Shown in pieces: positions 51,422 to 56,830 of a stretch of 64,000 nucleotides of DNA. The stretch lies in the NCBI RefSeq assembly GCF_024662215.1, contig NZ_CP096115.1:1240001-1304000 (forward strand), read 5' to 3'. The first letter of the stretch is position 1. Every line of letters begins with the position of its first letter. The position numbers were made by a program, and so were the translations under genes. Under the pieces are notes generated by a model. It worked only from the letters and a program-made list of their open reading frames with translations. It ran no database searches and was not told the origin of the DNA. Source of the stretch: Methanoplanus endosymbiosus. Its GTDB lineage: Archaea; Halobacteriota; Methanomicrobia; Methanomicrobiales; Methanomicrobiaceae.

Positions 51422-52165
51422 TCAATCCTCCTTATTAATCCACTCATAGAGGAATACAGCGACAACCGCCCCTAAGATCGGCCCAATCAGATATATAATA
51501 AAACTCCCCGTAACATTCGGTCCGCCAAGCAGTAGATCGCCCACCATCGGGCCGAAAGAACGTGCCGGATTGAGTGAAGCTCCGGATATATTCCCAATTG
51601 TTGTGATTATTCCGGCAACAGTAAGACCGATAATAAGACCTGCAAAGCCGCTGGGTGCTTTCTCATCAACAGCCACGCCCATAATCACCGACATCAGGAC
51701 AAAAGTTCCGATAAATTCCGCAAGTATTGCCTCACCCATTGATATACCTGGGAAAGGTGCAGTTGCTCCGAGACCACCAATAAGTACAGCCTGATCTCCG
51801 ACAGAGAATGCAAAGAGCAGACTTCCAAAAACTGCACCAATCAGCTGCGCAACTATATATGCACCGGTATCACCGGCAGGAAACTTTCCTTTCGCCCACA
51901 GTGCAATGGTCACAGCCGGATTTATGTGTGCTCCGGACACTCTTCCGAATGCGTAGATCACCGCAGCAATCACAATACCAAATGCAAGTCCTATAGCAAG
52001 CCATGTCGAAAGGCCACCGGCATCACCAATACCTATGGAATATTCAGAAGCATGTACACTGCCCTGCGTGAGCAACAGTGCAATAACAGCAGAACCGGCA
52101 CCGAAATAGACAAGAAGTGCAGTTCCAATCAGTTCTGCAACTGATCTTTTAACAAGGGAAACCAT
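51422..52165 (-). CDS. Aquaporin / MIP-family channel
   Basis: Six-helix channel of 247 residues. Both half-helix NPA motifs are present: GRVSGAHINPAVTIALWAK (about 78) and NISGASLNPARSFGPMVG (about 193). Helix 1 has ELIGTALLVYFGAGSAVIAL. Archaeal AqpM conducts water, glycerol and possibly small gases; selectivity is not deducible here. It is the last gene of an operon with a DUF2180 protein and a DUF2193-like protein. Confidence 0.92.
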   Translation of the reverse strand: MVSLVKRSVAELIGTALLVYFGAGSAVIALLLTQGSVHASEYSIGIGDAGGLSTWLAIGLAFGIVIAAVIYAFGRVSGAHINPAVTIALWAKGKFPAGDTGAYIVAQLIGAVFGSLLFAFSVGDQAVLIGGLGATAPFPGISMGEAILAEFIGTFVLMSVIMGVAVDEKAPSGFAGLIIGLTVAGIITTIGNISGASLNPARSFGPMVGDLLLGGPNVTGSFIIYLIGPILGAVVAVFLYEWINKED

Positions 52166-52173
52166 TATTTACC

Positions 52174-52383
52174 TCAGCCCTTCTTCAGTGCATTGTAGCA
52201 GTCAGGACACAATATTCTGGGCAGGGACTTTGAAATACGGGATGCAGGGAAGGGATAACCTCCCTCCCACACATCATTATCCTCACGTATTGCATGCTCC
52301 ATGCAAAGACCCATTCCACAGACTATGCAGACCGCTACAGCGTCAGAGTCAACACCCTCTTTAGCGCATATGTAGCATTTCAT
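52174..52383 (-). CDS. DUF2180-type small Cys-rich protein
   Basis: 69 residues, MKCYICAKEGVDSDAVAVC at the start, then CGMGLCMEHAIRED and LPRILCPDCYNALKKG. Three Cys pairs plus His make a double zinc-ribbon-like pattern that fits DUF2180. It lies between the DUF2193-like gene (19 bp) and the aquaporin gene (8 bp) and is almost certainly translated with them. Function unknown. Confidence 0.8.
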   Translation of the reverse strand: MKCYICAKEGVDSDAVAVCIVCGMGLCMEHAIREDNDVWEGGYPFPASRISKSLPRILCPDCYNALKKG

Positions 52384-52402
52384 TTATCTCACCACAATTA
52401 TA

Positions 52403-53899
52403 TCAGACTGCGTCACGGTACTGGCAGTACTGGTGGCGGAAGTCAACACAGGATGCAGAAGCACAGTTCTTACATGCACGAACAGGCGCAGCTGCTGTTC
52501 CCTTGTCAAGAGCAATGACATTGGTCATCATAGTTGCTGTTATCGGCTCTGATGTAAGCAGGCACGGGTAGTCAGCAAGGCTCATCATGGCAGCAAACCT
52601 GACAGTAATCGCACATGCCGGATAGACGTACCTCTGCGGATTCTGAATTACATCATGCTTCTCAACCGGAGATAGATCAATACTCAGGCCACTGACATTG
52701 GGTTTAAGTCCTGCCGGAGTTCCTGCCTTAATCTTCCTTGCCCTGTCCATAATACCCCATCCGCGGTACACCATATCCATAAAGTCACAGTTGTGAAGCT
52801 CAGCAGCAGCGCCCCTTGTCGGATATAGCTGAACAAAGTTGTGGAACCTCTTTGTCAGTAGTTCAACAACGGAAAGGCCGTTAAACCCGTCAAGTTCAAG
52901 AATATACTCAGCAGCAGCGGCACTTGATCCGGTTGCGACACTCAGCACCTGATACGGGCTTTTAAACTTACTGATATTCTGCCTGAGAGAGCTGTCAATG
53001 ACATCTGTTACAGCTTCAATAATTCCCATCACCATATCATCCTTACACATATTGTATGTGGACTGGGCGATGTGGTGGGCAATGTCACCGACACAGTATG
53101 CGGGAATAGTGACAATATTTGCATAATGAACCTCGTCATCAAGTGCGGCCATAACGGCAGGTTTGATATCTTTTTTATATCCTTCCATGTACTTCCGGGG
53201 ATCAAATGAATTCATTCCAAGTGAGTCCATAAGATCGGCCTGTGCACTTACAGGCTGTTCGTAGATGTATTTTAACTCGGCAATCTCCTTCTCAACCGCA
53301 GATGCAAGAGTAGATCCTCCTTCTATTTCATGGGCAAATACATCGCCTGCACCATAGGATGTATTCATACCCCATGACTTTGCGGCAAGGATAGCTTTTT
53401 TGTGATCTCCCGGAATATCAGTCTTTCTCAGGATCTGGTTTACAATATTGCTTGTGCTGCCCGGAATCATGGCAAAGTCAACGACACAGGTAGGCCCATA
53501 AAATCCGGCGTATCTTCGTGCAGATTCAAGACCCACAATGGCCTCCTCTTTACCAATCTGTTCAATGAACTTGTCCACACTCTTCTTAAAAGCATCATCT
53601 TCCGCGTACAGCAGTTCAAGCACTGCCGGAGTCTGATAATGCTCAACAAAAGGATCATCCTCAGGCCGGACATAATCGGTAAGCGCCTTTAAATTATCAA
53701 AATGAGCATTCACTGAGATTTTATGCAGTCCGAAAACTGCCTCAGACTGCCCTTCGGCAACAGTCATCTTATTGACGGCATCAACATATGGCTTACCATC
53801 AGCAACTTTGAATTCTTTCCCCCTCTTCTCCCTGAGGATGGAAACATCAGCATACTGTGCCCCCATTGCCTCGTTTATCATTTTTTCATATATGGTCAT
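52403..53899 (-). CDS. DUF2193-type protein, function unknown, with C-terminal Cys cluster
   Basis: 498 residues, no membrane helices or signal peptide. Recognisable stretches are YADVSILREKRGKEFKVADG near the start, RRYAGFYGPTCVVDFAMIPG, AKSWGMNTSYGAGDVFAHEI, YANIVTIPAYCVGDIAHHIA, LYPTRGAAAELHNCDFMDMV and the final ACKNCASASCVDFRHQYCQY, a C-x2-C-x4-C-x7-C pattern suggesting an Fe-S or other metal site. The overall pattern is that of DUF2193, known mainly from methanogens; assignment is by eye. It heads the operon with DUF2180 and aquaporin and has a good TATA box and GGAGG site, so it is probably well expressed. Confidence 0.7.
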   Translation of the reverse strand: MTIYEKMINEAMGAQYADVSILREKRGKEFKVADGKPYVDAVNKMTVAEGQSEAVFGLHKISVNAHFDNLKALTDYVRPEDDPFVEHYQTPAVLELLYAEDDAFKKSVDKFIEQIGKEEAIVGLESARRYAGFYGPTCVVDFAMIPGSTSNIVNQILRKTDIPGDHKKAILAAKSWGMNTSYGAGDVFAHEIEGGSTLASAVEKEIAELKYIYEQPVSAQADLMDSLGMNSFDPRKYMEGYKKDIKPAVMAALDDEVHYANIVTIPAYCVGDIAHHIAQSTYNMCKDDMVMGIIEAVTDVIDSSLRQNISKFKSPYQVLSVATGSSAAAAEYILELDGFNGLSVVELLTKRFHNFVQLYPTRGAAAELHNCDFMDMVYRGWGIMDRARKIKAGTPAGLKPNVSGLSIDLSPVEKHDVIQNPQRYVYPACAITVRFAAMMSLADYPCLLTSEPITATMMTNVIALDKGTAAAPVRACKNCASASCVDFRHQYCQYRDAV

Positions 53900-53908
53900 T
53901 TCATTATA

Positions 53909-53985
53909 CCTCCATTCGGGTCAATCTTCAGATCATCTGAGACATATATAATACTATTCTAACCAGAGATGTTTATATAATGAAA
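53909..53985 (-). promoter_or_regulatory. Promoter and ribosome-binding site of the DUF2193-DUF2180-aquaporin operon
   Basis: On the minus strand, CATTATATAAACATC (about 53967-53981) is a strong archaeal TATA box. Transcription would begin near 53948, giving a leader of about 50 nt ending in GGAGG (53909-53913), 9 nt before the ATG. No other gene is seen in 53900-54173. Confidence 0.6.
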
Positions 53986-54173
53986 TTCTAAGATGAAAAT
54001 AAAAATAAAAACACCAGATAATCATTCAGTCACAAACATAATATTGCAGGAAGAAACATTTAAGTGCATAGAAATCACAGTTACAAAGTTCAGAGAACAC
54101 ATAACAATAAATTAATGTTTCATCAATGTGAACCTGCACCCGGTTCCAATACAGACATTTTCAGGCCACAAAA

Positions 54174-55217
54174 TTACCGCCATAAGGAATCTGAAAAGGG
54201 ATCTCTCCGGCAGGCATTATAATTCATCTTAACCTTCTCAGGAAAACGGTTGGCATAGCAGTATGCACAGAGATGAGGACAGGTGTTGTAAGAACCGACA
54301 TCGGCACTTTCAATGCAGCCACATGCAGGACGCTGCCCTTTATCCTTTTTTGCGTGACGGGAAAGATATCTTTTCATATCAGGATCACCGGAGCAGAGGC
54401 GTGCAATCAACTCAGGATCTACACAGCGATTCTTTTCTATACCAAATTTTCTCAGGTCATAATTCTCACCGCATGTAACGGCATTTATACCCCATCTCCC
54501 ACAAATCCTGCCCGCTTCCGCTGAGAATTCCAAAACCTCATCATCTGTAAATTCCCTGACTGAGCCTGCCGCCTTTATTCCGGACTTTTCCAGATTTCTC
54601 TCAACTGTTTTGTAGAGATCGATGAAGCTGAATACAAGCTTTTCGGTATAGAGATGTACCTCCTCACCGATATCTTCAATCCGCCCGATAAGTGTCTCAA
54701 CAGCGATGTTATCGGAGAGAATAAGCGGATCAAAACGCCAGATCACTCTTTCCGGGCCGCAAATATCAGATAATATCTTAAAAGTCTCAATTCTCTCAGA
54801 AAGTGGCGGAACATTTCTCTCAAAACCCTCCCGGTCATAGTTATTTAAGGTGAACTGAAAGTAATAGCAAAGGCCCATTCTGTCAATCCCCGGCAGATAT
54901 GAAATCAGAGGACGGGGATTTTTTGACCAGAATACAATCGCCCTTACATCATCGTAGATTATCCTGCGTGCCCTTCTGTTGTAAGGGTTTATCCTGACAG
55001 AATATCCGGCCTTCAGACGGTTCATAAACCATTCCGGATAGAATGCAGGAATATCGGTAGTCCTGCTCACAGAGATAATTTTCGGAGAAAAAGGGGAGTA
55101 TTCAGACGGAAATATTGGTGGAGTACTGTCAGTTAACTTCTGTTCAGCAGACTCCCCCGACCCTGAACCGGAAAGAACCGCATCATTACCGGAATTCAAA
55201 TCTCCAGCCACCCCCAT
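54174..55217 (-). CDS. DUF1848-family protein with Cys cluster
   Basis: 347 residues. A disordered-looking N-terminus of about 45 residues precedes the family region KIISVSRTTDIPAFYPEWFM, NPYNRRARRIIYDDVRAIVF with WSKNPRP, FQFTLNNYDREGFERNVPPL, and VIWRFDPLILSD. The C-terminus has ACGCIESADVGSYNTCPHLC and AYCYANRF, that is Cys residues in C-x-C ... C-x3-C-x2-C spacing, a candidate Fe-S site of radical-SAM type near the C-terminus. It follows sepS by 29 bp. Enzymatic role unknown. Confidence 0.8.
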   Translation of the reverse strand: MGVAGDLNSGNDAVLSGSGSGESAEQKLTDSTPPIFPSEYSPFSPKIISVSRTTDIPAFYPEWFMNRLKAGYSVRINPYNRRARRIIYDDVRAIVFWSKNPRPLISYLPGIDRMGLCYYFQFTLNNYDREGFERNVPPLSERIETFKILSDICGPERVIWRFDPLILSDNIAVETLIGRIEDIGEEVHLYTEKLVFSFIDLYKTVERNLEKSGIKAAGSVREFTDDEVLEFSAEAGRICGRWGINAVTCGENYDLRKFGIEKNRCVDPELIARLCSGDPDMKRYLSRHAKKDKGQRPACGCIESADVGSYNTCPHLCAYCYANRFPEKVKMNYNACRRDPFSDSLWR

Positions 55218-55246: not shown

Positions 55247-56830
55247 TTACTCAAATTCCCATCTGACGGCTGTGAATACAGGCCCTCTGAGATCCAACTT
55301 CAGACCCCTGTCTGTGATATATCTCATAGCCCAGGGTTCTATTTTAATATTGAGATCTGACGGGAGTTTGGCCATCTTCACCTGAAGATCACCGGGCTCT
55401 CCGGTGAGGGAGGACTCCTCAATTCTTGCAGCTGCAAGGTTTGAAATTGCAGAAATATATGATATATGCGAGTTAACACCCTTGTCCCTCACCTTTCTGA
55501 AACTCTTGGTATCAGGAACACCGAGAACCTTCCCACCGGATATGAAGATCTCATTTCCTGCCGCAGGGCCAAGCAGTTTTGAGTTCTCCTCACGCTCTTC
55601 AACAAAGACCTTCAGTCTCATGCCGCAGAAATTATCAGACTCGTATGCTAAAAATTCACAGGGGCTTTCTGCATCACCATTTGAGACAGCAGCCTTTTCA
55701 ATAGCATATGCAATCTCAATACCTTCCTGAGTTGACGGCTCTTCCCTAAGCCCGATTGCACCTGCAAGTTCAAAGTCGGAATATTCACGCGGATACATCT
55801 GCGGATAGGTTAAGACCCTGACATCATCAGACTGATATTCGATCATAGCAAGGCGCTCAACACCCATTCCAAGATTCATAACCGGAACTTCAATCCCATA
55901 AGCTGAAAGGGCATATGGGCTGTACATACCAAATGTCGCAACCTCAACCCATCCGTGAACAGGATGCTTTGCATAGACCTCAGTCTGCGTATCAGGCACA
56001 TAATACTTTGATCTCTTCTCATCAGGCCTGAACTCAAAGTCAGTAAAGCCAAACGCAGATAAAAGTCCGGCAGTGACAGCCTTGCCATCCTCAATGGTAA
56101 CATCCTCACCTGCAATAATACATGAAGCAGAATGATATGTCATAAGCCTTGTCGGCCCTTCCTCCTGCTCTCTTCTGAAACACCTGTCAATCGAGAACTG
56201 TTTTACCGGAAGAGGAGACTTATCCCACATCTCCCCAAGTGACATAAACCATCCGGAAGTCATATGTGAACGGAGTGTTGTCCTTGACGATTCAGGAGAG
56301 AGATCCTTAAATTCCGGAAATACCTCATCCATCATAGCTGCAACAACGCCGTCATCAGCTCCAAGCACAGCGGCAATCTCATGTGTCAGATCATCACCGT
56401 CAATCTCAGACTTCTTGTAGGCATGAAGTGTTTTTCTGAGTTTCTCCTCAGTCTCTTCGTTTACAGTTACTCCGGTAAGCTCAGAAATCCGTTCGATCTG
56501 TTTTCTTCCGATTCCCACATTGGGCCGGGGAAGACCGCCGAGATAAAAAACCCGGTCTAAAACAGCATTGGCCTCCGGGCCGAACTGCTTAAAGACATCC
56601 TTTTCATCTATAAACAGCGGGACTCTTGCCTCATCAAAGCCCATTGAGAGATAAACCTCCCTTAAACGCTGGATGGTCTCTGCAACGGGGTGTGCTTTTG
56701 CCCCTGCAAACTTTCCCCTTGGATAGCTCTTTGATACAGGAGCTTTTGGAATAAACTCCGGTCCCTTATGCCATGCGGCATCGAAATCCTCCTTTGCCAG
56801 TGCCCTGAATTCTTCAGAATCAAATCTCAT
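55247..56830 (-). CDS. sepS: O-phosphoserine-tRNA(Cys) ligase
   Basis: Charges tRNA(Cys) with phosphoserine in methanogens; conversion to Cys needs SepCysS, which is not in this window. 527 residues, class II fold. Start [20 protein letters not shown], then [20 protein letters not shown], motif 2 region [19 protein letters not shown] with [11 protein letters not shown], and motif 3 region [14 protein letters not shown]. Start at ATG 56830, one base from the stop of taw1; probably cotranscribed with taw1 and argS. Confidence 0.95.

Follow-up and report, generated by a model that had tools for sequence, protein, structure and literature searches.

The window analysed here, a stretch of 64,000 nucleotides of Methanoplanus endosymbiosus (contig NZ_CP096115.1, positions 1,240,001 to 1,304,000 of the forward strand), carries an operon of three minus-strand genes that encode a DUF2193 protein, a DUF2180 mini-protein and an aquaporin of the AqpM type. 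The DUF2193 family falls into two types, A and B, and the window's protein is of type A. The elements of the operon, in positions of the window, are as follows.

52403-53899, minus strand: DUF2193 protein (type A), 498 amino acids, PF09959, first gene of the operon, predicted to be soluble and all-helical.
52174-52383, minus strand: DUF2180 protein, 69 amino acids, PF09947, with a FYVE-like cross-brace pattern.
51422-52165, minus strand: AqpM-type aquaporin, 247 amino acids, PF00230, with two NPA motifs and the aromatic/arginine (ar/R) filter F-I-A-R.
52403-52564, minus strand: C-terminal conserved Cys site of DUF2193, C446 (codon 52562-52564) plus C476-x2-C479-x9-H489-x2-C492, from alignments of 79 and 60 sequences.
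53900-53990, minus strand: 5' region with a GGAGG ribosome-binding site and AT-rich, TATA-like elements, from the sequence and an alignment of relatives.

A preliminary description of this DNA had proposed three open reading frames (498 residues, 69 residues and a channel) with gaps of 19 bp between DUF2193 and DUF2180 and 8 bp between DUF2180 and the aquaporin. All of this was confirmed at the sequence level; its coordinates, 52174-53899, cover the first two genes but leave the channel outside. The DUF2193 protein matched PF09959 over residues 2-498 of 498 (E=2.2e-268; 891 bits against a gathering cut-off of 25), the small protein matched PF09947 (E=1.5e-37; 128 bits against 22.2), and the channel matched the PF00230 MIP family (E=1e-46) and, likewise above its cut-off, TIGR00861. 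The ribosome-binding site and TATA-like box described earlier were also found: GGAGG lies 9 nt 5' of the first ATG of DUF2193, and the AT-rich stretches TTATATAA and TATTATATATG lie about 75 and 45 nt upstream of it, with partial conservation among relatives. A G(A/G)GGT element was retained upstream of DUF2193 in an alignment of seven relatives, and a conserved operator upstream of the window's operon was not seen in the alignment of relatives. In six Archaeoglobus-like loci (L088, L091, L095, L103, L105 and L114), a divergent gene for an HTH_10 regulator stands upstream of DUF2193, and palindromes resembling GTGGACATNTCCAC are conserved in the shared intergenic region; they are likely to be the operator of the trio in those loci.

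The conservation of the trio was surveyed at 80 loci from GTDB genomes, three of which end too early to judge, leaving 77 that were scored. The complete trio was found in identical order in 72 of them, so the three genes are neighbours in other genomes, a point that the preliminary description had proposed to test. Three further loci, all of Methanobacteriaceae, had DUF2193 and AqpM without DUF2180, and two Methanoregula loci had DUF2193 with both partners missing. We also surveyed a sample of 295 genomes of the phylum, counting AqpM within E 1e-40. In 75 of the 85 genomes that have it, the AqpM gene followed DUF2193 on the same strand at a distance of 39-305 bp; ten had AqpM without DUF2193, and six had DUF2193 without AqpM (Fisher p=3e-51). 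In the order to which the window belongs, 36 genomes had both DUF2193 and DUF2180, 15 had neither, and one and three had a single one of the two (p=1e-9). Both p-values make the case look stronger than it is, since genomes that share ancestry do not count as separate observations; this caveat has no bearing on the spread over several orders or on the replacement of the aquaporin. Such replacement was seen in three of the six AqpM-less DUF2193 genomes (G050, G097 and G095), where another aquaporin, about 40% identical, occupies the position of AqpM, and a second DUF2193 copy in genome G266 (locus L126) is likewise paired with a non-AqpM aquaporin of about 40% identity. The replacement aquaporins examined (loci L094/L097, L126 and L188) kept an F-I-[A/T]-R filter.

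These results indicate that the three genes are one real, conserved unit, and that DUF2193 and an aquaporin with an AqpM-type filter are linked far beyond chance; the neutral-solute channel is a near-constant partner. In favour of a linkage by inherited gene order only, with no functional coupling, some lineages have DUF2193 or AqpM alone. However, the arrangement persists over several orders and families, a non-orthologous aquaporin has been substituted at the same place, and the presence of the two genes co-varies as given above, so we consider this explanation highly improbable. The losses within the trio look as though they follow an order: DUF2193 was lost and DUF2180-AqpM retained in G111 and in G238, where a DUF2193 fragment is left, and G253 retains DUF2180 beside a broken AqpM. 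No earlier description of the DUF2193-AqpM linkage was found in the literature searched.

The unit is conserved in many methanogens but is not specific to them. Both DUFs are also found in the laboratory methanogen Methanosarcina acetivorans. No McrA was detected in 24 of the 85 DUF2193 genomes of the sample, many carriers not being methanogens, and the operon is missing from many methanogens of the window's order. On the strength of the 24 carriers, a function specific to methanogenesis was rejected; eight type-A genomes in which no MtrH was detectable led us likewise to reject a mechanism of type A that depends on MtrH. Both sets together indicate that type A is independent of Mtr and of methanogenesis. 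The window's genes 5' of the trio encode DUF1848 (54174-55217, minus strand) and, by eye, an O-phosphoseryl-tRNA synthetase-like protein (55247-56830, minus strand), and neither was kept as a neighbour in the trio loci surveyed. At loci L126 and L188, type-A DUF2193 and the different aquaporin are followed by a gene for an FrhB-like F420 iron-sulphur protein, and a second divergent DUF2180-like gene of about 44% identity lies upstream of one trio (L106:3128-3370).

Across an alignment of 79 DUF2193 sequences (50 type A and 29 type B), 51 residues were invariant, including H66, E86, E125, R128, H275, H276, H369, D372, D375, C446, C476, C479 and C492, a pattern that is, judged from the alignment, enzyme-like. 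The tail of the window's protein, RACKNCASASCVDFRHQYCQ, does contain the C-x2-C-x4-C-x7-C spacing that had suggested a probable iron-sulphur (Fe-S) protein, but this spacing is not family-wide: the third Cys, C484, was Cys in three of the 50 type-A sequences and in none of the 29 of type B, and position 489 was His in 45 of the former and Cys in all of the latter. The pattern C-x2-C-x9-[H/C]-x2-C is typical of zinc sites. As C484 is variable and position 489 alternates between His and Cys, zinc is favoured over Fe-S, and the conserved set (C446 with C476, C479, [H/C]489 and C492) looks like a zinc site. The invariant C446, C476, C479 and C492 are compatible with an Fe-S cluster of a geometry other than C-x2-C-x4-C-x7-C. 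For the DUF2193 protein Mvol_0354 of Methanococcus voltae, which was elevated on FeS2, the C-terminal motif has been given as CX2CX6DX2(H/C)X2C and its authors favour Fe-S (PMC9431491). DUF2193 might accordingly be an Fe-S protein for iron or sulphur uptake, with AqpM passing H2S. The variable C484 and the alternation at position 489 suit zinc better, iron or sulphur uptake genes are not conserved as neighbours of the trio, and the absence of the operon from many methanogens of the window's order also counts against this role, which we regard as improbable.

The structure prediction proposed in the preliminary description yielded a confident model of DUF2193 but no recognisable PDB relative. 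The AlphaFold2 model, built from a 60-row alignment, was helical throughout (predicted local distance difference test, pLDDT, 92.2; predicted template-modelling score, pTM, 0.92). Against the PDB it had no Foldseek match at E<=0.001 and a best VIA-align score of Z 4.1 among weak, unrelated helical matches, which is not proof of a new fold; searches of the PDB by sequence, with the single sequence and with the 60-row profile, found nothing. PF09959 was the sole Pfam match, there was no NCBIfam hit, and a recognisable methyltransferase domain was not found. An equation of DUF2193 with COG4050 proved wrong, COG4050 being a methanogenesis marker (DUF2112/DUF2102). The earlier statement that no role is established for DUF2193 or DUF2180 agrees with the literature searched, in which DUF2193 appeared only as the M. 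voltae proteomics hit and no mention of DUF2180 was found.

DUF2180 has the ligand pairs C3xxC6, C19xxC22, C27xxH30 and C59xxC62, in which C3, C19, C22, C27, H30, C59 and C62 are invariant and C6 nearly so. Its model (pTM 0.61) was closest to Rim2 (Z 5.2, 2.3 A over 49 residues) and to FYVE domains (Z 4-4.7). From its ligand pattern, the mini-protein looks like a FYVE-like two-zinc cross-brace with eight ligands in four pairs. The basic phosphoinositide-binding motif (R-[RK]-H-H-C-R-like) was not seen, by eye, in 82 distinct DUF2180 sequences, and a profile search of the PDB found nothing. In Methanosarcinaceae-like loci (L164-L170 and L177), a tandem DUF2180 pair stands in a redox-stress cluster divergent from mer, and DUF2193 is absent.

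The window's aquaporin matched 3ne2 (probable AqpM, E=9.6e-90) and 2evu (AqpM, E=1.3e-87) in the PDB and has the NPA motifs HINPAV and SLNPAR. All 150 sequences of the alignment had an ar/R filter of F-I-[S/A/G/T]-R or F-V-S-R, mostly F-I-[S/A/G]-R. AqpM serves as the archetype of archaeal aquaporins; two structures of it have been solved, and to our knowledge there is no agreement on its natural solute. At ANME-1-like loci (L179-L184; ANME, anaerobic methanotrophic archaea), DUF2193 is missing and AqpM in most cases closely follows an HbpS-like gene, with PNPOx-like genes nearby. AqpM was up about fourfold at 25 MPa in Methanocalculus sp. 1H1Hc7 (PMC12727201), which favours a role in osmotic or pressure adaptation, AqpM moving water and DUF2193 and DUF2180 regulating or stabilising it. 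The same pressure-response table, however, has no entry for DUF2193 or DUF2180 by name, F-I-[S/A/G]-R is the wide AqpM type of filter, and 51 invariant, largely polar residues, together with the mtr2 operon in which type B is found (below), are ill-suited to a water regulator. We therefore judge this role quite improbable.

Type B forms one deeply split clade in the DUF2193 tree (support 100/100), found in Archaeoglobus-like (f9), Syntropharchaeum-like (f31), ANME-2-like (f30 and f34) and Argoarchaeum-like (f35) hosts. All 27 type-B loci with upstream flank (11 and 16 in two surveys) had MtrH on the strand of DUF2193B, four further loci cut by the contig end not being counted. In f30, f34 and f35 the order was mtrE-D-C-B-A, mtrH, mer, in some an aldehyde:ferredoxin oxidoreductase gene, and DUF2193B last, with gene identities confirmed by Pfam and NCBIfam. 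In the f30 and f34 genomes the mtr set is present twice, and mer in most cases also twice, with DUF2193B in the divergent set; the f35 genomes have the divergent set only, which carries DUF2193B. The Mtr2-Mer2 cluster of ANME-2 and Ca. Argoarchaeum includes a "hypothetical protein", according to Chadwick et al. 2022 (PMC9012536). Membership of an operon with mtr and mer is a feature of type B that the window's type A does not share. An equation of the MtrH partner with the A. fulgidus methoxydotrophy gene AF0009/MtoA found no support in the text of the paper on that gene, in which DUF2193 is not named. At a Syntropharchaeum-like locus (L120:130-4520), genes of the DUF2284, MtrH, URO-D and aldehyde ferredoxin oxidoreductase families stand directly upstream of DUF2193B and mer, a cluster whose gene content may possibly represent a full methyl-transfer pathway.

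The operon context of type B ties the family to methyl- and methylene-tetrahydromethanopterin chemistry, and the 51 residues common to both types suggest related chemistry in type A. With the channel linkage of type A, the simplest joint reading is a one-carbon (C1) enzyme and a neutral form of its C1 group that crosses AqpM. DUF2193 would be an enzyme of one-carbon metabolism that is cytosolic, contains zinc and has a new fold. The substrate of type B would be a C1 unit at the level of methyl/methylene-tetrahydromethanopterin, handled beside Mtr2 and Mer2; type A would handle the same kind of group as a small uncharged molecule (candidates are methanol, formaldehyde hydrate and methanethiol) that would enter or leave the cell via AqpM. 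DUF2180 may serve as a partner loaded with zinc or as an assembly factor, and some lineages dispense with it. It is probable that the channel and the enzyme share one small neutral solute. That this solute is a C1 compound we give slightly less than an even chance, and the operon as a whole can only tentatively, at a likelihood just short of even, be called a channel-plus-enzyme module for C1 handling.

Several points weigh against the C1 interpretation. No one-carbon gene was conserved beside the type-A trio in the neighbour survey of the loci, and MtrH was undetectable in the eight type-A genomes mentioned above. The two types are only about 35-40% identical, and their chemistry may differ. 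The "hypothetical protein" ('?') gene of the Mtr2-Mer2 cluster is very probably, by inference, DUF2193B. The AqpM filter by itself does not choose a solute; the reaction, the ligand and the metal of the proposed chemistry are all putative, and its likelihood is about even or less.

The redox-stress context of partner genes is a further such point and introduces the main rival, in which H2O2 or another small oxidant crosses the membrane through AqpM and is met by DUF2193, a metal-dependent enzyme that handles peroxide or radicals, with DUF2180 as a zinc/thiol redox partner. The tandem DUF2180 genes of the Methanosarcinaceae-like loci sit with genes for a multihaem cytochrome, an AhpD-like CMD protein, FMN_red, flavoproteins, desulfoferrodoxin and rubrerythrin. 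The AqpM genes that occur without DUF2193 adjoin HbpS-like and PNPOx genes at L179-L184 and a ferritin-like gene at L185, and a PNPOx gene takes the AqpM position behind one AqpM-less DUF2193 (L187). However, no redox-stress gene is conserved around the trio itself, type B is found in the mtr2-mer2 operon and not in stress clusters, and the redox neighbourhoods of DUF2180 are without DUF2193. A literature search on aquaporins and oxidative stress in methanogens gave nothing useful. On balance, we think the redox-stress role unlikely.

In its fullest form, the C1 interpretation would make DUF2193 a new class of one-carbon enzyme with an unseen fold. It would be the missing Mtr2-Mer2 component of ANME-2-like and Argoarchaeum-like archaea; Archaeoglobi and hydrogenotrophic methanogens would use it to exchange a volatile or neutral C1 compound with their surroundings through AqpM, and this exchange would be the true physiological role of AqpM. 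This full form we hold to be doubtful. The near-constant linkage to DUF2193 makes the question of the natural solute of AqpM directly testable. The type-B sister would give an identity to an unexplained Mtr2-Mer2 gene of anaerobic methane and ethane oxidisers, and one uncharacterised, enzyme-like family of unrecognised fold connects ordinary methanogens, Archaeoglobi and ANME.

Each component can be set beside a known system. Like the FYVE/RING-like cross-brace fingers, DUF2180 has four pairs of ligands, eight in all, at FYVE-like spacing, but it differs from FYVE fingers in its one His ligand, in having no phosphoinositide-binding motif and in having no PDB relative by profile. The window's DUF2193 belongs to the same Pfam family as Mvol_0354, known only as a proteomics hit (PMC9431491). 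In the Mtr2-Mer2 cluster (PMC9012536), type-B DUF2193 stands behind mer2, very probably as the "hypothetical protein"; the DUF2193 of the window is of type A, its partners are AqpM and DUF2180, and neither mtr nor mer lies nearby. Beside the AqpM of Methanothermobacter marburgensis (2F2B/2EVU) and of Archaeoglobus fulgidus (3NE2), the window's channel is a plain member, with F-I-A-R in place of F-I-S-R; no description was found, in the literature searched, of the place that AqpM takes almost without exception at the end of a DUF2193 operon. Although the enzyme part here is without a known family, fold or reaction, the arrangement resembles glpF-glpK-type channel-enzyme operons, in that a MIP channel for a neutral solute is translated with a cytosolic protein that would consume or produce this solute.
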